Origin: Providencia sp. PROV188
GTDB lineage: Bacteria > Pseudomonadota > Gammaproteobacteria > Enterobacterales > Enterobacteriaceae
Direction of reading: 5' to 3'
NCBI RefSeq assembly: GCF_027595165.1
Contig: NZ_CP097291.1
Span: forward strand, 3,162,001-3,226,000
DNA length: 64,000 nt
Made by a program: the position numbers and the translations under genes. The number at the start of each line of letters is the position of its first letter. Position 1 is the stretch's first letter. Shown piece by piece: positions 56,219 through 64,000 of this stretch. A model generated the notes under the pieces. That model had not been told where the DNA came from and did no database searches. It worked only from the letters and a program-made list of their open reading frames with translations.

Positions 56219-57112
56219 TCACCCCCTAAATAATTTAGGGATTTCGCGGAGACACCACGACTTCGCCTCCCCCATGCTGTCCCGTCGCCACGCCATAATC
56301 ATATTCGACTCATGGCTAAACTCCGCCCCCACCACTTGCAGGCGCCCTTCCTTAATATCTTGCTCCACCAGCGGGTATGGCATTGTCGCCACCCCGAGCC
56401 CTGCAATTAGTGCTTTGCGCTTATCTTCGATGCTCGATACCGTCAATCTTTGTTGTTTATCCAGCAGTTGCACGGTGATCACTGGGCGCTCACGGGCGGT
56501 ATCTGCCACCGCAATACCTCGGTATTTCACTCGCGTGGTTTCAGAAAGCGGTTCTGGTTCTTGGTGAATAGGATGGTTCGGGCTTGCCACATAAATATGG
56601 TTCAAGGTATACAGCACTTTGGAGTTAATTTCAGAGGATGAACGGAAATGCATATCTGGTGCGATAACAATATCCGCACGTCCTGATTCAAGTCGCTCCC
56701 ATGCCCCTGCTAGCACCTCAGTAATTAAAGAGAGCTGGGTGTCGGATTTCTCAGCCAGTTTGTCCACCAGCGGGAATAAAGACTCAGCCGGAACCAGCGC
56801 TTCACACACAATAGTCAGATGAGTTTCCCAACCTTTAGCTAGCGCCTCCGCATCCGATGTGAGTTTATCTGCGGCTTCAAGCAATACGCGCCCACGCTCT
56901 AACAGCATGCGCCCTACATTGGTAAACTTGGTTCGATGTCCTGAACGGTCAAACAAAATAACATCAAGTTCTTCTTCTAACTTCTGCATGGTATAGCTCA
57001 ATGCCGAAGGAACGCGACCTAGCTCTTCCGCCGCTGCCGCAAAGCTGCCACGCCTATCGATTGCATCCATCACCCTTAACGACTCAAGTGTTAATGCTCT
57101 CTCTTTGCTCAT
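56219..57112 (-). CDS. yhaJ: LysR-family regulator YhaJ
   Basis: A 297-residue LTTR close to E. coli YhaJ: the N-terminal HTH has LTLESLRVMDAIDRRGSFAA, ELGRVPSALSYTMQKLEEEL and DVILFDRSGHRTKFTNVGRM; the effector domain has LAGAWERLESGRADIVIAPD and ends WCLREIPKLF. In E. coli it activates yqjF and yhaK and responds to aromatic quinone-like products. Its divergence from yhaK and closeness to yqjF here fit that regulon. Confidence 0.93.
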   Translation of the reverse strand: MSKERALTLESLRVMDAIDRRGSFAAAAEELGRVPSALSYTMQKLEEELDVILFDRSGHRTKFTNVGRMLLERGRVLLEAADKLTSDAEALAKGWETHLTIVCEALVPAESLFPLVDKLAEKSDTQLSLITEVLAGAWERLESGRADIVIAPDMHFRSSSEINSKVLYTLNHIYVASPNHPIHQEPEPLSETTRVKYRGIAVADTARERPVITVQLLDKQQRLTVSSIEDKRKALIAGLGVATMPYPLVEQDIKEGRLQVVGAEFSHESNMIMAWRRDSMGEAKSWCLREIPKLFRG

Positions 57113-57234
57113 GATGTATCTCTTTCAGGAAATTTGAATGATGGAAACAGATTAACTGGCTAACAATTCAACGTCCAGATATTTATTATAACAATATATT
57201 ACTAGCTATATATTTTGAGTGAGGGTTAACCATT

Positions 57235-57942
57235 ATGATGAAATTAAGATCAGTTAACCATTGTGGGAAAGCAGACTACGGTTGGTTACAAGCACGCTAT
57301 ACTTTTTCGTTTGGTCACTATTTTGATCCAGACCTAATGGGTTTTAAAACCCTAAAAGTGCTCAATCAGGAAGTGCTTGCGCCAGATAATGCTTTTCAAC
57401 CAAGAGTTTATCCTCATGTTGATATTGTGAACATCATCCTGCAAGGTCAAGCTGAATACCGCGATAATTTAGGTAATACCGTCAGTGCAAAAGCAGGGGA
57501 ATGCGTCAGCTTTTCGCCTCGCCCTGACCTGAGTTACAGTGAACACAATACCAGTGAGACAACGCCATTAACACGGCTCCAGCTGTGGCTAAATGCGTGC
57601 CCACAACAGGAATCTATGCCGCCCCAAAAGTTGGCATTAGCGGAGAAAGATAACAAGCTTATCGCCTCACCCGATGGGGACGATAATAGCCTACAACTTC
57701 GCCAAAAAATTTGGATAAGCCAGATTTACCTTGAGCCTAATGAATCAAAAACCCTCGCATTACGAGGTAAAAATGCCTATCTACAATCCATTCATGGTGG
57801 TTTACAGGTTAGCGGGAAAGAATCGCAATCTTTATCAATGAGCTGTAACGACGGCTTATTTATCCAAGATGAAAATTCCCTAACGCTCACCAGCTACCGA
57901 GCATTTAGAGGTTTATTAATTGATTTAGGCGAATCGTTGTAA
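57235..57942 (+). CDS. yhaK: Pirin-like bicupin YhaK
   Basis: A 235-residue two-cupin protein. The N-terminus HCGKADYGWLQARYTFSFGH and the metal-site-like YPHVDIVNIILQGQAEYRDN are pirin/YhaK landmarks. E. coli YhaK is a cytoplasmic bicupin without the full pirin metal set, proposed as a redox sensor. A probable YhaJ-controlled promoter lies in the 122-bp divergent gap. ATG-ATG start; the second codon is equally possible. Confidence 0.9.
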   Translation: MMKLRSVNHCGKADYGWLQARYTFSFGHYFDPDLMGFKTLKVLNQEVLAPDNAFQPRVYPHVDIVNIILQGQAEYRDNLGNTVSAKAGECVSFSPRPDLSYSEHNTSETTPLTRLQLWLNACPQQESMPPQKLALAEKDNKLIASPDGDDNSLQLRQKIWISQIYLEPNESKTLALRGKNAYLQSIHGGLQVSGKESQSLSMSCNDGLFIQDENSLTLTSYRAFRGLLIDLGESL

Positions 57943-58132
57943 TCCTATTCAGGAGGCGGAAAAAGTGAATTTACTCCATAAATTGCGCAAAATTTGCGAA
58001 TAGATTCGCAAATTTCATCATTTATATTTCCGCTATCCCGATATCACTGTGATAGAGTCCAGCCATAAGACAGTTAAAAAACCATCAGTTTTTAACTCCG
58101 AACTTTATTTTTTTGATTTTAAAGGGGTTCTT

Positions 58133-60070
58133 GTGGCTTTATTCATTTTGCAGCGACACAATCAAATTTTCTCTCGGATCCTCAATGAGGTTGTCCCTCA
58201 AGATGAATTAGCGAAACAGTTTTCCGTTTCCACCCGTACTATTCGTTCAGACATCAATGAAATCAATGAATTAATTAAAGATCATAGTGCTCATATTGTG
58301 TATGAGCGCGGGCGTGGATATCGATTAAAAATCGAAAATGATGAAATTTTTTCTGCATTTACTAAGCTTAATGACAAAAATAACCAGATTCCACGCACCA
58401 GCAAAGAGCGTATTGATGCCCTATTGCTCAAACTCTTGATGTTATCCCTGCCCGTCAAGCTCGATGATATTGCCGAAGAGTGGTTTGTTAGCCGCAGTAC
58501 CATTCAGCAAGATATGGGAGCCGTTCGGGAGCATCTTCATCGCTATCAAGTTCAACTGGAGAGCATTCCTCATCAAGGGATCCGCTTAAATGGCAGTGAG
58601 TGGGCTATTCGTGCTTGTATGACCGAAGCACTCTGGCGGCAATTTAGTGAGCAAATCACCCCCGATCTCGCCACATTTACCCCGGAAAGTCTGGATAATC
58701 TCGATTTAACCTACATCGATAAAGTAGTTCATAACAGCTTGAATCGCTTTGATATTCGTATCAGCAATGAAGGTCATCTTTATCTTGTATTTAACTGCGC
58801 CGTCACCATTTTGCGTATTACCCGCGGTCATGAACTCACTGCCTGCGTCAATAACGAAGAGTTAGAAGAAGTCATTACTCAAGCTTGTGATGAAATTTCT
58901 AAAGGGTTAATTTACTTCCTGGGTAATGATTTATCCTCAGCTGAATTGAGCTTTTTGCACGATCAAATCATCGCGCAGCGTATCAGCAATCAGCACGCAT
59001 CAACACAAAAGCATAATCATCACAATGAGTTATCTGAATATATCTTAAATTATATCAACGAGTTGTATAACTATGATTTGCGGAGTGATGAAAAGCTAAA
59101 GAAAGATCTGAATACCCATCTTTCTGCTTTAATGACTCGCCTTCAATACCATATTTCTACCCCAAACCCGCTGCTTTCAGACATCAAACAGTATTATCCA
59201 TTTGCCTATGATGTCACATTAAGCGCCTTAACCAGCGCCAGTAAGCAGCTACTTCCACATCCCATTAATGAAGATGAACTGGGTTACTTAGCAGTGCACA
59301 TTGGGGTTAGCCTTGAACGAAATTATGGGGCAGGCTCCGCACGCCAAACGGAAGTGTTAGTGGTCACGGATGCGGGTAACTCCACCTTTCGTGTGGTGGA
59401 ATCCAAAATTATGCGTGAATTTCCACAGCTCAAATTTAGCCGCGGGTTAACACTGCAAGAGTATGAATCGTTAGATGAAGTCGCAGAAGACTTTGTGATC
59501 ACCACCGTACGGATCTCTGAGAAAAATAAACCAGTTATTAAAATTGCACCCTTCCCAACCCCCTACCAGCTCGAACAAGTGGGTCGCTTAGCGATGGTGG
59601 ATCAGACTCGTCCCTATATTATTGAGCGCTTCTTCGATGAGCGTTTTTTTATGGTTATCAATGAAAAAATTAGCCAAGAGACGCTGTTTAAAACCGTCTG
59701 CCAGAAACTGCAATTAGAAGGCTATGTCACCGCAGATTTTTACCCGTCCCTACAAGAGCGGGAATCGATTGTCTCGACATTGCTGGGTGAAGGGATCGCC
59801 CTTCCTCACTCCTTGGGGTTACTTGCCAATAAAACTATTGTGACAACTATCCTTGCCCCGCAAGGCATCGAGTGGAACAAAGAAACCAAAGAGAACGCCT
59901 ATGTGATTTTTTTATTGGCAATCAGCAAAACTGACTATGAAGAAGCCATGGCGATTTATGATTTGTTTGTCACCTTCGTCAAAGAGAAAACCACCCGCCG
60001 CCTAGTGAATGTCAAAAATTTCAATGAATTCCAAGCAATTGCTAAAGATAGTCTCGCGCGAATTTTATAG
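58133..60070 (+). CDS. PRD- and PTS-domain transcriptional regulator (MtlR/LicR type)
   Basis: A regulator of ~645 residues. Two HTH regions come first (~1-60: LAKQFSVSTRTIRSDINEIN; ~80-150: LDDIAEEWFVSRSTIQQDMG), then two PRDs (~165-400; the second has HIGVSLERN), an EIIB-like domain (~404-490) and an EIIA-like domain (~500-645; GEGIALPHSLG with phospho-acceptor His near 559). The EIIB segment LVVTDAGNST lacks the usual active-site cysteine. I place the start at GTG 58133 behind AAGGGG; the frame opens at a GTG at 58049. It is placed to activate the downstream operon in response to PTS phosphorylation. Confidence 0.82.
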   Translation: MALFILQRHNQIFSRILNEVVPQDELAKQFSVSTRTIRSDINEINELIKDHSAHIVYERGRGYRLKIENDEIFSAFTKLNDKNNQIPRTSKERIDALLLKLLMLSLPVKLDDIAEEWFVSRSTIQQDMGAVREHLHRYQVQLESIPHQGIRLNGSEWAIRACMTEALWRQFSEQITPDLATFTPESLDNLDLTYIDKVVHNSLNRFDIRISNEGHLYLVFNCAVTILRITRGHELTACVNNEELEEVITQACDEISKGLIYFLGNDLSSAELSFLHDQIIAQRISNQHASTQKHNHHNELSEYILNYINELYNYDLRSDEKLKKDLNTHLSALMTRLQYHISTPNPLLSDIKQYYPFAYDVTLSALTSASKQLLPHPINEDELGYLAVHIGVSLERNYGAGSARQTEVLVVTDAGNSTFRVVESKIMREFPQLKFSRGLTLQEYESLDEVAEDFVITTVRISEKNKPVIKIAPFPTPYQLEQVGRLAMVDQTRPYIIERFFDERFFMVINEKISQETLFKTVCQKLQLEGYVTADFYPSLQERESIVSTLLGEGIALPHSLGLLANKTIVTTILAPQGIEWNKETKENAYVIFLLAISKTDYEEAMAIYDLFVTFVKEKTTRRLVNVKNFNEFQAIAKDSLARIL

Positions 60071-60111
60071 TTATCAATAATTCCCACCACCATCCCCCCC
60101 ACTTCCCATCA

Positions 60112-60486
60112 TTTCCACTTCTCAGTGGAAAAAGGGAGGTGGCCACTATTTACGTGATCCTAACCACAACTCCACCAAATGATTTTTAATCCAAATTGTC
60201 CATTTCATGCGTAAACCAACGTAAGTGGAAGTGAAGATTTCCACTCTATATAGATTTCCACAAATTCATTTCCACTTTTATTTATTAACCTGAGAGCTAT
60301 TTTCACTTATAAAAAATCGATCTTAATGATTTGAATTTAAATGATTTTAATTACTCACTCGTTATTTGATACACCAAAACCCCCCTCGTAATGTGTTAGT
60401 TTTTCCAGTTAGCTTCCTGTTAGATCGAAAATTAACCACCATCCTTCCGGTTACACTTCCAAAATATTTCCACTTTGAACTGGAAA
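60112..60486. promoter_or_regulatory. Array of TTTCCACT motifs upstream of the PRD-SFCGS operon
   Basis: The 513-bp region 60071-60583 contains repeated TTTCCACT in both orientations: 60112, 60124 (reverse), 60224 (reverse), 60238, 60255 (TTTCCACA), 60269, 60467 and 60479 (reverse, one mismatch). Two pairs form the dyad TTTCCA-N8-TGGAAA (60112-60131 and 60467-60486). One forms AGTGGAA-N8-TTCCACT (60224-60245). Copies 60255 and 60269 are direct repeats 14 bp apart. These are probably operators for the PRD regulator encoded just upstream. Confidence 0.7.
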
Positions 60487-60583
60487 TTCCCTGTCTGCAA
60501 AATTATCCAAGAAGCGATTAAGGTATTAGCCATGAAGAAAAAAGTGATTTGATTTGAAATATTACCTTGGATTTTAAACAGTT

Positions 60584-60922
60584 ATGAATGAATCAGTTGT
60601 GGTTTTCAAAATGTTAGAAGACGACCTTGATATCCATCAGGTCACACAAGAACTGCTAGCAGTGATTACTGACTGGCTCAAACTGGAGGGTTGCTACACC
60701 ACGGATGTACAGCAACAAATGCTGGAATCTCATCTACGTGCCATGGTCGCTCGAGCCAAAACCGGTGAAGCCTTACCGGAAGTGGATATCAGTTTGTTCG
60801 ATGAAATTTCGAGCCATTCCATTGCATTAGCGCAACGCGTCGTCGATACCTTGCCGGGGCTTGCACCAGAAGAGACTTATTTGCTCTCAGTTCACTTTGA
60901 AGTTGCCCGTTCTAATGATTAA
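60584..60922 (+). CDS. Small stand-alone PRD-domain protein (EF_0829/AHA_3910 family)
   Basis: A 112-residue protein that appears to be a single PTS-regulation domain without DNA- or RNA-binding part: MLEDDLDIHQVTQELLAVIT, SLFDEISSHSIALAQRVVDT and ETYLLSVHFEVA at the end resemble PRD helices, with His residues that could be phosphorylated. It matches the family seen at the head of this conserved neighbourhood in Enterococcus and Aeromonas. No strong ribosome site precedes the ATG; an internal ATG at 60611 is an alternative. It may modulate the upstream regulator. Confidence 0.72.
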   Translation: MNESVVVFKMLEDDLDIHQVTQELLAVITDWLKLEGCYTTDVQQQMLESHLRAMVARAKTGEALPEVDISLFDEISSHSIALAQRVVDTLPGLAPEETYLLSVHFEVARSND

Positions 60923-60980
60923 TTTTTAGCATCTTATTTTTAGTACTCAATTTTTAGCATTCAGTTTTGGAGAATATTTT

Positions 60981-61346
60981 ATGAAACAGATAGTTATTGT
61001 TATCGGCGATCGTTTAGGTAAAGGGCAAAAAGTGGCTGCGGGCGTTGAAGCTGCTGGCGGAAAAGCCATTGTTGTTCCTGGTGTCGCTGCTGACATGAAA
61101 CTGGGGGATGTGATGAACCAAGAACAAGCTGATCTTGGTATTTCATTCTGTGGTAGCGGTGGTGCAGGCGCCATTACAGCTCAAACCAAATATGGCTACA
61201 AAGCGCGTTATGGGATGCGTTCGATTGAAGAGGGAGAAACCGCCATTGCTGAAGGTTGCAATGTTTTAGGTTTCGGATTTATGGACAAGGAAGAGTTAGG
61301 CGAGCGCTTAGTTAAAGCTTTTAATAAAAAATACGGCAACGCTTAA
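60981..61346 (+). CDS. SFCGS-family glycine-rich protein
   Basis: A 121-residue soluble protein. It carries the family-naming motif GISFCGSGGAGAI with Cys57 and a nucleotide- or phosphate-loop-like glycine run, plus VIGDRLGKGQKVAAGVEAAG at the start. The Cys followed by GSGGAG resembles the phosphorylated loop of PTS EIIB proteins (C-x-S/T-G-x-x-T/G), an inference of mine. GGAG lies 9 nt upstream. Its stop overlaps the next start (TAATG), so synthesis with the DUF4312 protein is coupled. Function undefined. Confidence 0.75.
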   Translation: MKQIVIVIGDRLGKGQKVAAGVEAAGGKAIVVPGVAADMKLGDVMNQEQADLGISFCGSGGAGAITAQTKYGYKARYGMRSIEEGETAIAEGCNVLGFGFMDKEELGERLVKAFNKKYGNA

Positions 61347-61642
61347 TGAAAAAATCTATCGAAACGACCGTACGGGTGACAGGGCAAAGCGACACAAAGC
61401 AAAAAGCGATTGCTGACGCCTTAAATTCGATTCAAAAAACCGTACTTAAGAACAGCACCGACATCATTCTGCGGATAGAACCCAAGGATGTTGAGGTTGT
61501 TAGTGCTCACTCTCATTCGCGGACAGAAAAGTTTCTCTTTCTCTTTTTGCCACGCAAACGTGAACATTTCCGAGTTGTTCTCGACGTTTCGCTGGATGTT
61601 ACCTTACTTTCTGTCAACGAAATTCCATTTACAGAACAATAA
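61346..61642 (+). CDS. DUF4312-family protein
   Basis: A 98-residue protein that begins KKSIETTVRVTGQSDTKQKA and contains RTEKFLFLFLPRKREHFRVV, a hydrophobic-basic stretch, then a beta-rich end. It is consistent with a small cytoplasmic or membrane-peripheral subunit. It is the second gene of the SFCGS-DUF4312-DUF4311-DUF4310 set, which is always found together in the genomes I recall. No enzyme motif is visible. Confidence 0.72.
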   Translation: MKKSIETTVRVTGQSDTKQKAIADALNSIQKTVLKNSTDIILRIEPKDVEVVSAHSHSRTEKFLFLFLPRKREHFRVVLDVSLDVTLLSVNEIPFTEQ

Positions 61643-61668
61643 AAGCAATCAGGTCTGGAGTAAATTCC

Positions 61669-62460
61669 ATGAGTGAAACTGCATCTTTCTTAGAAATATT
61701 GGGCATGTCCCTCATTATCGGCGGTCTCTGCGGCTTTGGTTTAGGCGCAGGGGCAGCACGTATGTTCCACGCGCCAACCGTTCAAGGTATGGGAGCATTC
61801 CGTACCCTTGGTGAGTTAAACGCCTGTGAGGGCGACCCCGCATCACACTTCTCATTCGGCTTAGGATTCTTCTTCAACGCATGGGCATCATCAGTCGCTG
61901 CGGGTGCCTTTACCCAAGACGTTGACCACCGCATCATCCCTAACTGGGGTGCTGCTGCTCTATTAACTAAAAACCGCAGTGTGGCAGATACCCTGCATAA
62001 CCCGAAAAAAATGGCGATTGCCTGTGCCATTATCGGGGCATTGGTGGTCGCCTTCTTAAATACCACGGCGTCCGCAGTACCAGCCGCGCTGCAAACCACC
62101 GCTATTAACGTGCTGGTTCCGGCAGCTAACTTACTGGTTAACACCGTGATGCCCGTCATTTTCTGGCTAGCCGCGATGGATGCTGGTCGTCGTTCCGGTT
62201 TCTGGGCAACCTTATTTGGTGGTTGCGCACAATTAATCATGGGTAACGCTATCCCAGGTTTAGTGTTAGGGATCTTGATTGGTAAAGGCGTGGATGACAA
62301 TGGCTGGAACCGCATCACTCGTACCATGATGATCACCGTTATTCTGCTGTTCGTTCTCAGTGGCTTCTTCCGCGAATTTGACCTGAAGATGATCACCTCT
62401 TTCAACTTAGACAAACCACTGTGGCTTGAATATGTCCACGGACTGCTGAGCGGGAAATAA
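61669..62460 (+). CDS. DUF4311-family membrane protein
   Basis: A 263-residue polytopic protein: ILGMSLIIGGLCGFGLGAGA at the start, AIACAIIGALVVAFLNTTAS and NTVMPVIFWLAAMDAGRRSG in the middle, and ITRTMMITVILLFVLSGFFR near the end give about six membrane segments. Conserved acidic and polar residues (LNACEGDPASHFSFGLGFFF) could line a substrate site. It lies 2 nt before the DUF4310 gene. Together these look like the two halves of a permease; transport is inferred from topology and operon context only. Confidence 0.75.
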   Translation: MSETASFLEILGMSLIIGGLCGFGLGAGAARMFHAPTVQGMGAFRTLGELNACEGDPASHFSFGLGFFFNAWASSVAAGAFTQDVDHRIIPNWGAAALLTKNRSVADTLHNPKKMAIACAIIGALVVAFLNTTASAVPAALQTTAINVLVPAANLLVNTVMPVIFWLAAMDAGRRSGFWATLFGGCAQLIMGNAIPGLVLGILIGKGVDDNGWNRITRTMMITVILLFVLSGFFREFDLKMITSFNLDKPLWLEYVHGLLSGK

Positions 62461-62462
62461 TC

Positions 62463-63113
62463 ATGACAACTGAAATCAATAAACAAGACTTTTGGTACGC
62501 AGAATGGTCTTTCCCTATCTTTGTTGGGCTGCTATCAGCGGGGATCTTCGCGGGTACCCATATGTATGTCGTGTACGGGTTTGGCGCATTTAACGAAGTG
62601 GCTTTCGTCGCCATGTTACGTGCAGGGCTAGATACGGGGGTTTACGGTGCGGTCGCCGCCTTCGGTGCAAGCTTCCTGTTTGCGCGGATTATCGAAGGGT
62701 CATTAGTGGGGATTTTAGATATCGGTGGCGCACTACAAACCGGTATTGGCTTAGGGGTTCCCGCCCTATTTTTAGCCGCTGGCTGGGATATTTTAGTCAC
62801 TAACTTCTGGATCTCCCTGATCACAGGTTTATTCCTTGGTGTGCTTATCGGCTTAATTATCGTGTTCGCCCGTAAGTTTACCATTGCACAAGCGAACTCC
62901 ACATTCGGCGCAGACGTGATGATGGGGGCTGGTAACACATCCGGCCGTTTCTTGGGTCCATTGATTATCCTTGCCGCAATGGCCGCGTCTATTCCGATTG
63001 GTATCGGCGCACTGATTGGTTCACTGATTTTCTATGTATGGCAAAAACCCGTCGCTGGGGGCGCTATCTTAGGTGCAATGTTGTTTGGGTATTTCTTCCC
63101 ACTCGCCGCTTAA
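62463..63113 (+). CDS. DUF4310-family membrane protein
   Basis: A 216-residue polytopic protein: FPIFVGLLSAGIFAGTHMYV, AAFGASFLFARIIEGSLVGI, SLITGLFLGVLIGLIIVFAR and GGAILGAMLFGYFFPLAA mark about six membrane segments, with GADVMMGAGNTSGRFLGPLI as the most conserved-looking loop. It is the probable partner of DUF4311. A GCCCCC/GGGGGC hairpin follows at 63125-63142, between it and the amidohydrolase gene. Confidence 0.75.
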   Translation: MTTEINKQDFWYAEWSFPIFVGLLSAGIFAGTHMYVVYGFGAFNEVAFVAMLRAGLDTGVYGAVAAFGASFLFARIIEGSLVGILDIGGALQTGIGLGVPALFLAAGWDILVTNFWISLITGLFLGVLIGLIIVFARKFTIAQANSTFGADVMMGAGNTSGRFLGPLIILAAMAASIPIGIGALIGSLIFYVWQKPVAGGAILGAMLFGYFFPLAA

Positions 63114-63124
63114 TAAATATCTAA

Positions 63125-63142
63125 GCCCCCTACTTTGGGGGC
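63125..63142 (+). other. Stem-loop between DUF4310 and amidohydrolase genes
   Basis: GCCCCC-TACTTT-GGGGGC is a 6-bp GC stem without a T-run, so it is more likely a processing or stability element or a weak attenuator than a full terminator. Confidence 0.55.
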
Positions 63143-63150
63143 GAAGAGCA

Positions 63151-63181
63151 GCCAACAACGCTGCGGTTTGAAGTATGACGA
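63151..63181. repeat. Half copy of the palindromic intergenic repeat
   Basis: GCCAACAACGCTGCGGTTTG plus AAGTATGACGAG resembles the right arm of the 56109-56217 element (GCCAACACAGCTACAGCTTG plus AAGTATGACGAG). The left half is missing. It sits 24 bp upstream of the amidohydrolase start. Confidence 0.6.
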
Positions 63182-63204
63182 GTATGACTATAAAGAAGGT
63201 AATC

Positions 63205-64000
63205 ATGTATTCTCTAATCATCAAACAAGGAAAGCGTATCGATGGCTCAATTATCGATATCCTAATCAAAGACGGAAAAATTCAAGCTGCGGGACCTGAG
63301 CTTTCCCACAATCAGCAAGCTGAAAAAATCATTGATCTTGAAGGAAAGCTGTATGTCAGCGCTGGATGGATTGATTCTCACGCCCACTGTTTTACCGAAT
63401 CGCCAATTTACTTCGATGAGCCTGATCTCGCTGGTGCTGCTGGTGGTGTCACTTCACTGGTTGATGCGGGCAGTGTAGGTGCTGATGATATTGACAGGTT
63501 TTATCGGCTCACCACTCAGTCCAAAACCAATGTCTTCTCTCTGCTGAATATTTCACGCATTGGCATTATTGCTCAGAATGAGCTGTCCAACATGGATAAT
63601 ATCGACGATGCGAGTTTCCAAGCTGCACTTGAGCGCCACCCCGGCTTTGTGGTGGGCATGAAAGCGCGCATGAGCAAAAGTGTGGTGGGCGAGAATGGTA
63701 TTGCGCCTTTGGTTAAAGCCAAAGAAATGCAGAAAAAACACCATCTTCCATTAATGGTGCACATTGGAAATAATCCGCCCAATATTGATGAAGTCGCCGA
63801 CTTACTCACCCGTGGGGACATCATTACCCACTGTTTTAATGGCAAACCAAATAAAATTTTAGGGGATGATGGATACCTAAAACCATCTATTGCCCGCGCC
63901 CTCGCCCGTGGCGTGATCCTCGATGTGGGTCACGGCGGTGAAAGCTTTAGCTTCAAAGTCGCAGAGCAAGCCATGCGAATTGGCACCTATCCAGACATTA
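63205..64000 (+). CDS. Amidohydrolase/deacetylase-family metallohydrolase (3' end outside window)
   Basis: The first 265 codons of an amidohydrolase-superfamily enzyme with no stop before the window end. GAAGG precedes the ATG. Metal-site motifs are in order: DSHAHC (HxH) near residue 58, a lysine in VGMKARMS that could be carbamylated, MVHIG, ITHCFNG and DVGHGG. The family at this locus is annotated as an amidohydrolase/deacetylase near D-glucosaminate-type (Dga) genes, which suggests deacylation or ring opening of an N-substituted sugar acid. It is part of the SFCGS operon. Confidence 0.85.
   Translation, partial: MYSLIIKQGKRIDGSIIDILIKDGKIQAAGPELSHNQQAEKIIDLEGKLYVSAGWIDSHAHCFTESPIYFDEPDLAGAAGGVTSLVDAGSVGADDIDRFYRLTTQSKTNVFSLLNISRIGIIAQNELSNMDNIDDASFQAALERHPGFVVGMKARMSKSVVGENGIAPLVKAKEMQKKHHLPLMVHIGNNPPNIDEVADLLTRGDIITHCFNGKPNKILGDDGYLKPSIARALARGVILDVGHGGESFSFKVAEQAMRIGTYPDI

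Follow-up and report, generated by a model that had tools for sequence, protein, structure and literature searches.

Here we describe an operon at the downstream end of a 64,000-nt stretch of Providencia sp. PROV188 (contig NZ_CP097291.1, positions 3,162,001 to 3,226,000; hereafter the window), which follows a regulator gene starting at position 58133 of the window and runs past the window edge. The operon joins a stand-alone PRD gene, a block of genes from the SFCGS, DUF4312, DUF4311 and DUF4310 families (the DUF block), an amidohydrolase gene and genes for DgaE- and DgaF-like enzymes. It is real and widespread, and it is without an assigned function in the literature and database searches made. 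We propose, at a probability of roughly 0.55, that it serves the phosphorylating uptake and degradation of an acylated amino-sugar acid, with the DUF block acting in the manner of an enzyme II (EII) of the phosphoenolpyruvate (PEP)-dependent phosphotransferase system (PTS).

The pathway that we infer, from import through phosphotransfer to catabolism and control, is as follows. An N-acylated amino-sugar acid would be imported and degraded by the operon products. DUF4311 and DUF4310 would form the membrane permease and, together with SFCGS, DUF4312 and the stand-alone PRD protein, would act like a PTS EII, the substrate entering as its 6-phosphate. Phosphate would pass from PEP through enzyme I (EI) and HPr, probably first to histidines on the small PRD protein or to the regulator's EIIA domain, and from there to Cys57 of SFCGS. 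The amidohydrolase would strip the acyl group, the DgaE-like pyridoxal 5'-phosphate (PLP) enzyme would eliminate ammonia to yield 2-keto-3-deoxy-6-phosphogluconate (KDPG), and the DgaF-like aldolase would split KDPG into pyruvate and glyceraldehyde 3-phosphate. A PRD/EIIA regulator would control the operon at TTTCCA-N8-TGGAAA sites.

The arrangement of the operon was assessed in loci found by a DUF4311 alignment scan of genome contigs, from which the best 80 of at least 499 confirmed loci were taken; all 80 are from Proteobacteria by their record titles, and the sample is therefore skewed to close relatives. The exact order PRD-SFCGS-DUF4312-DUF4311-DUF4310-amidohydrolase-DgaE-DgaF is found in 69 of these loci, and thus the arrangement is not a product of chance. 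DUF4311, DUF4310, the amidohydrolase and DgaE are each present in all 80, followed by PRD and SFCGS (79 each), DUF4312 (78), the regulator (76, no match being found in the other four), DgaF (73) and a lactonase-family gene (23).

The two catabolic genes were predicted by a preliminary description, made from the window sequence alone, to lie beyond position 64000, and both are present in the sequence past the window edge; the tie that it drew to DgaE/DgaF-type catabolism is borne out by their place in the operon and by the counts above. The DgaE-like protein falls within the wider DgaE family TIGR01437 (585.7, cut-off 385.3) and scores 375.9 bits against the D-glucosaminate-6-phosphate ammonia lyase equivalog, below its cut-off of 600. 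It aligns nearly full-length to 7lc0, the same protein as the D-glucosaminate-6-phosphate ammonia lyase DGL (7LCE), for which the available portion of PMC9529869 places the docked phosphate near Arg301, Arg332 and Arg346 and gives His163 as the proton donor. Across an alignment of 83 rows (82 distinct, the window sequence standing in it twice; fragments shorter than 300 aa excluded), the three phosphate-site arginines, the PLP lysine Lys214 and, of the active-site histidine pair, His164 are each kept in 83/83, and His163 in 82/83, with Ala in Bartonella L017. A phosphorylated substrate of DgaE is therefore suggested by the unbroken arginine triad. Three distant homologues have Cys in place of the third arginine; they come from loci that are ABC- or GntP-linked and list no DgaF gene nearby. 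The DgaF-like protein passes the KDGP aldolase model NF047796 (391 bits, threshold 300).

Comparison with sister operons bears on who supplies the phosphate. Two genomes of the host's family carry a second DgaE/DgaF pair next to Man-type PTS genes, as EIIA-EIIB-EIIC-EIID-DgaE-DgaF in G166 and as EIID-DgaE-DgaF in G845; their DgaE proteins score 711 and 715 bits, above the equivalog cut-off, and the DUF block occupies the position of this Man-type PTS. G166 carries the DUF block as well, while in G845 its presence is judged from the DgaE score alone. A Man-PTS-DgaE-DgaF arrangement is also found on a plasmid of Lacticaseibacillus paracasei (L236), where no kinase is listed and the unlisted stretch holds, by eye, transposase-like frames only. 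Elsewhere, the DgaE/DgaF pair of C. difficile is accompanied by a lactose-type PTS, MupG, an amidohydrolase and a PfkB kinase, and the corresponding operon of Priestia megaterium by a gluconate:H+ symporter and a PfkB kinase.

BLAST with three PfkB queries found no PfkB kinase in the 80 loci, and since the largest gap within the gene run is 553 nt, there is no room for a kinase of this type inside it. Likewise, 11 EII queries (Man/Aga, lactose and GFL-type sets) gave no hit in the operon of any of the 80 loci, some of which are short at one end; the sole match is an AgaB-like gene at the end of L076, ~2.9 kb past the operon. For EII types beyond these queries we relied on Pfam alone, which assigns the candidate permease and EIIB to DUF and SFCGS families only, with no homology to a known EII. 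By these tests the operon appears not to belong to a known EII family. With no PfkB kinase, no EII of the types queried and no gap above 553 nt, elimination makes the DUF block the candidate phosphorylating importer.

The PTS link proposed in the preliminary description is supported by two Bartonella plasmids, L017 and L234, which are probably near-copies. In both, the operon is followed by the regulator and then by a ptsP gene encoding an HPr-EI fusion, and in the HY406 protein the active-site His motifs of HPr (GLHARP) and of EI (GGATSHVAILAR) are both present. On these plasmids, which come from bat isolates, the operon and the HPr-EI gene lie near type VI secretion genes. EI was found in 11 of the 12 operon-bearing genomes tested (of 80), as well as on the Bartonella HY406 plasmid. 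Four further loci (L062, L065, L077 and L088) have a gene beside the operon that matches part of the Bartonella HPr-EI; these were set aside, and from synteny we take the gene to be, probably, the chromosomal npr.

Conservation alone marks three residues as candidate phosphoacceptors. His50 and His104 of the stand-alone PRD protein, presumably the two phosphorylation sites of PRDs, are kept in 86/86 rows (84 distinct; frames with fewer than 90 aa aligned excluded). The window protein scores below the Pfam PRD cut-off, which its Bartonella counterpart passes, and it is clear by TIGR03582. The third candidate is Cys57 of SFCGS, which is invariant in 95/95 rows (83 distinct), as are Asp10, Arg11, Lys14, Asp38, Asp43, Lys70, Arg80 and Asp102.

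Cys57 had been correctly placed by the preliminary description, which read it as the phospho-site of an EIIB; the EIIB assignment itself finds no support in the sequence. Among 12,114 frames from the fetched loci and the window, a PF02302-type EIIB profile placed SFCGS no better than E 12, with an RpiB at 0.24. Behind its own 30 members the RpiB profile placed SFCGS (best E 0.016), and SFCGS also fills the next 14 places listed; reciprocally, the SFCGS profile ranked, after its own members, RpiB (0.034), DUF2620/YhfU (0.067) and then an unlabelled frame (0.32). These E-values are weak, so that the ranking is the evidence, and the 97 SFCGS frames, all of one family, do not count as independent evidence. 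In Pfam, the window protein matches LacAB_rpiB at E 0.012 (16 bits against a cut-off of 24.7) and DUF2620 at E 0.24; in NCBIfam, it matches the ribose-5-phosphate isomerase model at E 3e-4. Comparisons of SFCGS with RpiB and with EIIB by hhalign gave probabilities of at most 28% on shallow alignments (Neff, the effective number of sequences, ~2) and did not separate the two; the ranking took their place. SFCGS shares with the RpiB/LacAB isomerases a CG[ST]G loop with its Cys, and its weak profile similarity to them exceeds that of all other frames; it differs from them in its smaller length and in having no His-Asn motif (HN[DNG] in 29 of 30 RpiBs, none in the window protein), and by this measure it is not a member of RpiB/LacAB. 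On this weak resemblance we read SFCGS as an RpiB-like protein in which the CG-S-G loop persists and the His-Asn motif is gone, a combination that leaves room for a carrier role.

DUF4311 and DUF4310 are polytopic by hydropathy and highly conserved, and the E. faecalis proteins are 68% and 69% identical, respectively, to those of the window. Across 46 sequences DUF4311 has invariant polar residues at Arg31, His34, Glu49, Asp56, His60, Asp84, His87 and Arg88. AlphaFold2 models built from 46 sequences each are weak, with a predicted local distance difference test score (pLDDT) of 53 for DUF4311 and, for DUF4310, a pLDDT of 65 and a predicted template modelling score of 0.58. Profile searches of PDB sequences with either family gave chance-level matches only, and a suspected link to the Mtr methyltransferase subunits found no support there. 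Also, no sequence link was found between YhfT and the DUF4310 or DUF4311 profiles.

For the regulator, the preliminary description had named PRD, EIIB and EIIA parts. The PRD and EIIA domains stand, whereas Pfam finds no EIIB domain, and that part reduces to an EIIB-like loop recognized by eye, with Thr in the window and 22/74 rows and Cys in 52/74. His329 and His389 of the PRD are kept in 74/74 rows, and His559 of the EIIA domain in 73/74. Because 513 nt separate the regulator from the PRD gene, it lies outside the tightly spaced run. This gap contains two exact copies of the palindrome TTTCCA-N8-TGGAAA; a search tolerating one mismatch adds no further copy in the window, where 0.36 matches would be expected, and 5 of 100 shuffles reached two. 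The relaxed form TTYCCA-N8-TGGRAA is found in 47 of 79 loci between -600 and +60 relative to the earliest possible start of the PRD gene, with no match in that range in the other 32, and elsewhere only twice in 1.54 Mb; the loci are related, and hence the 47 are not 47 independent events. From this pattern the regulator would be expected to bind at the palindrome.

The amidohydrolase passes the TIGR03583 amidohydrolase/deacetylase model (516.7 bits, threshold 432), and its presence in the operon suggests that the substrate is an amino acid or amino-sugar acid carrying an acyl group. Amidohydrolases of cog3964 can be acetyl-mandelate esterases. Our preferred substrate, N-acetyl-D-glucosaminate (GlcNAc1A), is a tentative choice; it agrees with the proposed pathway, and one lytic polysaccharide monooxygenase (LPMO) is encoded in the host genome. 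According to the available part of PMC9537276, GlcNAc1A arises from chitin-cutting LPMOs. In Klebsiella a lactonase-family gene (PF10282; L019:12504-13658), related to that of the 23 loci counted above, follows DgaF, hinting at a lactone precursor.

Three known systems invite comparison. The Dga operon of Salmonella, in the accounts available from PMC9529869 and PMC7396535, comprises a Man-family PTS (dgaABCD) with DgaE and DgaF. It has in common with the present operon the DgaE/DgaF-type enzymes, PTS-linked regulation and an uptake module ahead of the enzymes; it differs in that PRD-SFCGS-DUF4312-DUF4311-DUF4310 here replaces the EII genes and an amidohydrolase is added. The regulator here is of the PRD/Mga/EIIA type, whereas the Man-type operon of G166 has a sigma-54 activator with PRD. 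The ong oxidative chitin pathway of Pseudoalteromonas shares deacetylation, a PLP deaminase step and an end in KDPG, but GlcNAc1A is there imported by an SSS symporter and phosphorylation comes last, by KdgK (PMC9537276, as far as its available text extends); OngB is given in the accessible part of PMC12017989 as a D-aminoacylase-like amidohydrolase of subtype V.

A counterpart in layout is the yhf operon of another genome of the host's genus (L102:3009-10548), which mirrors the window operon with a small PRD protein, a Cys/Gly-loop protein, a polytopic membrane protein and phosphotriesterase-like and PLP-type genes. PRD, DUF2620 and YhfT domains were found in it, and we take its genes to be YhfY (small PRD), YhfU (DUF2620), YhfT (membrane protein), Php and YhfS. 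It differs in having a single membrane protein, YhfT, and no DUF4312 was seen in it.

Table 1. Positions of the operon genes and candidate operators. Plain coordinates refer to the window; those prefixed L002 lie past its edge.
Feature	Coordinates	Strand	Basis or remark
Regulator: HTH_11, Mga, PRD and EIIA-2, with an EIIB-like segment by eye	58133..60070	+	Pfam; alternative start 58049
Palindrome TTTCCA-N8-TGGAAA, candidate operator copy 1	60112..60131
Palindrome TTTCCA-N8-TGGAAA, candidate operator copy 2	60467..60486		117 bp before PRD gene
Stand-alone PRD protein, candidate EIIA-like phosphoacceptor	60584..60922	+	TIGR03582, E 5e-33
SFCGS protein, candidate EIIB-like carrier, weakly RpiB/LacAB- and YhfU-related	60981..61346	+	PF14272, E 3e-60; TIGR03577
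DUF4312 soluble protein	61346..61642	+	PF14189/TIGR03578
DUF4311 membrane protein, candidate permease subunit	61669..62460	+	PF14188/TIGR03580; hydropathy, conservation
DUF4310 membrane protein, candidate permease subunit	62463..63113	+	PF14187/TIGR03579; hydropathy, conservation
Amidohydrolase/deacetylase TIGR03583	63205..64000	+	Cut by window end; continues to L002:7345
DgaE-like PLP ammonia lyase	L002:7326-8441		Past window edge
DgaF-like KDGP aldolase	L002:8443-9183		Past window edge; last gene of the operon

The genes and families in Table 1 are those first described, the open reading frame list and the Pfam/NCBIfam domain matches being in agreement, and the TAATG overlap and the 2-nt gap then reported correspond, from the coordinates, to 61344-61348 and 62461-62462. 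No known RNA family was found in 57000-64000.

Several observations weigh against the proposal of a phosphorylating importer. The strongest is locus L046 (AwWohl), which has the operon and for which neither an EI nor an HPr match was found. Its contigs are at most 31 kb long, so that the absence may reflect incompleteness, yet an EI domain was not seen in 8 of the 18 genomes of its family, L046 included, and it could therefore be a true PTS-less host. In E. faecalis the DUF block is accompanied by an ordinary EIIC, MupG and a PfkB kinase. The arginine triad is also found, by alignment, in the enzyme of the Priestia symporter operon and in the distant chain 8t7j, and is thus no exclusive mark of PTS uptake; moreover, given the score of 376 against an equivalog cut-off of 600, the substrate of the window DgaE may differ. 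The kinase search covered the PfkB family, with other kinase families and unlinked kinases elsewhere in the genomes outside its scope. SFCGS weakly resembles an isomerase family and not EIIB, and the weak DUF4310 and DUF4311 models gave no Foldseek match to the PDB at E <0.001, so that no fold is shown for either. As for the substrate, LPMOs occur in 21 of 93 genomes with a DUF-type DgaE and in 16 of 105 others, a set that includes reduced genomes (Fisher p 0.20); the DUF-type set was picked manually on score (best E below ~1e-164), and in 30 of 30 loci fetched DUF4310 and the amidohydrolase lie next to this DgaE. Since LPMOs are not enriched with the operon, the choice of GlcNAc1A gains no support.

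L046, the symporter and kinase of the Priestia operon and the RpiB-like leaning of SFCGS would all suit a rather doubtful alternative, in which DUF4310/DUF4311 is an ordinary secondary transporter for a substrate that carries its phosphate already or receives it from an unlinked kinase, the PTS parts (the regulator, the small PRD and the Bartonella HPr-EI) being regulatory only and SFCGS a small enzyme. Against it stand the lack of a PfkB-type kinase in the 80 loci and of space for one in the run, the two invariant histidines of the stand-alone PRD and the HPr-EI gene beside the operon in Bartonella, which would be odd if purely regulatory. The profile rankings and the NCBIfam match argue for a different role for SFCGS itself, that of an RpiB/LacAB-type sugar-phosphate isomerase or epimerase that prepares the substrate with Cys57 as catalytic base. 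We regard this as unlikely: the window protein has no counterpart of HN[DNG], none of the aligned SFCGS positions holds an invariant histidine, SFCGS is shorter than RpiB, and in 79 of 80 loci it is found alongside DUF4311 and DUF4310, the sequence of the eightieth, L088, beginning just before DUF4312. Furthermore, in the established pathway glucosaminate-6-phosphate is converted to KDPG with no isomerisation, and such a step would not be needed. Finally, the many invariant polar residues of DUF4311, unusual for a simple carrier, and the missing fold match would accord with a signalling or membrane-enzyme complex, uptake being left to a transporter elsewhere. This seems quite improbable to us, because the run has no room for another transporter gene (the flanks having been checked for transporters in part) and because the DUF block stands where the sister operons have their Man-type EII.

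SFCGS, DUF4310, DUF4311 and DUF4312 were encountered here in enteric bacteria, Aeromonas, Enterococcus and Bartonella. DUF4311 is present in 12 of 398 genomes drawn from the phylum, all 12 within the host's family; its closest named matches are from Providencia (P. rettgeri, 100%), and outside Proteobacteria one locus was seen, that of E. faecalis. Searches found no DUF4311 or SFCGS relatives in viral contigs and no PHROGs matches for five operon proteins, and E. coli genomes gave no DNA hit with the DUF4311 gene; a weak match of the DUF4311 search, L015, proved to be a different gene with a J-domain-like tail. DgaF is missing from the operon in L032-L035, L038, L039 and L042 (six Xenorhabdus and one Enterobacteriaceae metagenome-assembled genome). 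In P. stuartii NCTC11800 (L028:9311-9970), SFCGS and DUF4312 form a single 220-aa frame, either a natural fusion or a sequence error. DUF4312 was not found in L044, from the Arsenophonus symbiont of Aleurodicus, where two or three frames match each of the regulator, the amidohydrolase, DgaE and DgaF, genes that look broken or duplicated.

Literature searches found no paper naming DUF4310, DUF4311 or DUF4312 and none on EF0830-EF0833 or EF0837; for the SFCGS protein (SFCGS, TIGR03577, PF14272) none was apparent from titles. EF0839 has a hint of a fitness role from transposon sequencing (PMC7701990) and a promoter induced in urine (PMC2912369), as reported in the accessible parts of these papers.

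The operon might also supply the GlcNAc1A route that is missing in Aeromonas. In the available portion of PMC11653859, A. bestiarum and A. rivuli have LPMOs, and matches to OngB and OngC there are distant or none. Two other species of the genus gave matches, A. dhakensis (L078) for the operon and A. caviae for DUF4311.

PTS permeases fall into a few unrelated superfamilies. It is possible, if doubtful, that the operon encodes a new type of PEP-dependent group translocator, with an RpiB-like SFCGS protein as EIIB, a stand-alone PRD as EIIA and the DUF4311/DUF4310 pair, in which no EIIC or EIID homology was detected, as the carrier, and that the yhf operon of E. coli (YhfY, YhfU and YhfT) is a second branch of it. 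If the reading of the operon as a phosphorylating importer is true, four Pfam families, SFCGS, DUF4310, DUF4311 and DUF4312, would gain a function, and the list of phosphorylating importers would change by the addition of a further PTS permease superfamily, built with an isomerase-like protein and a regulator-type domain.

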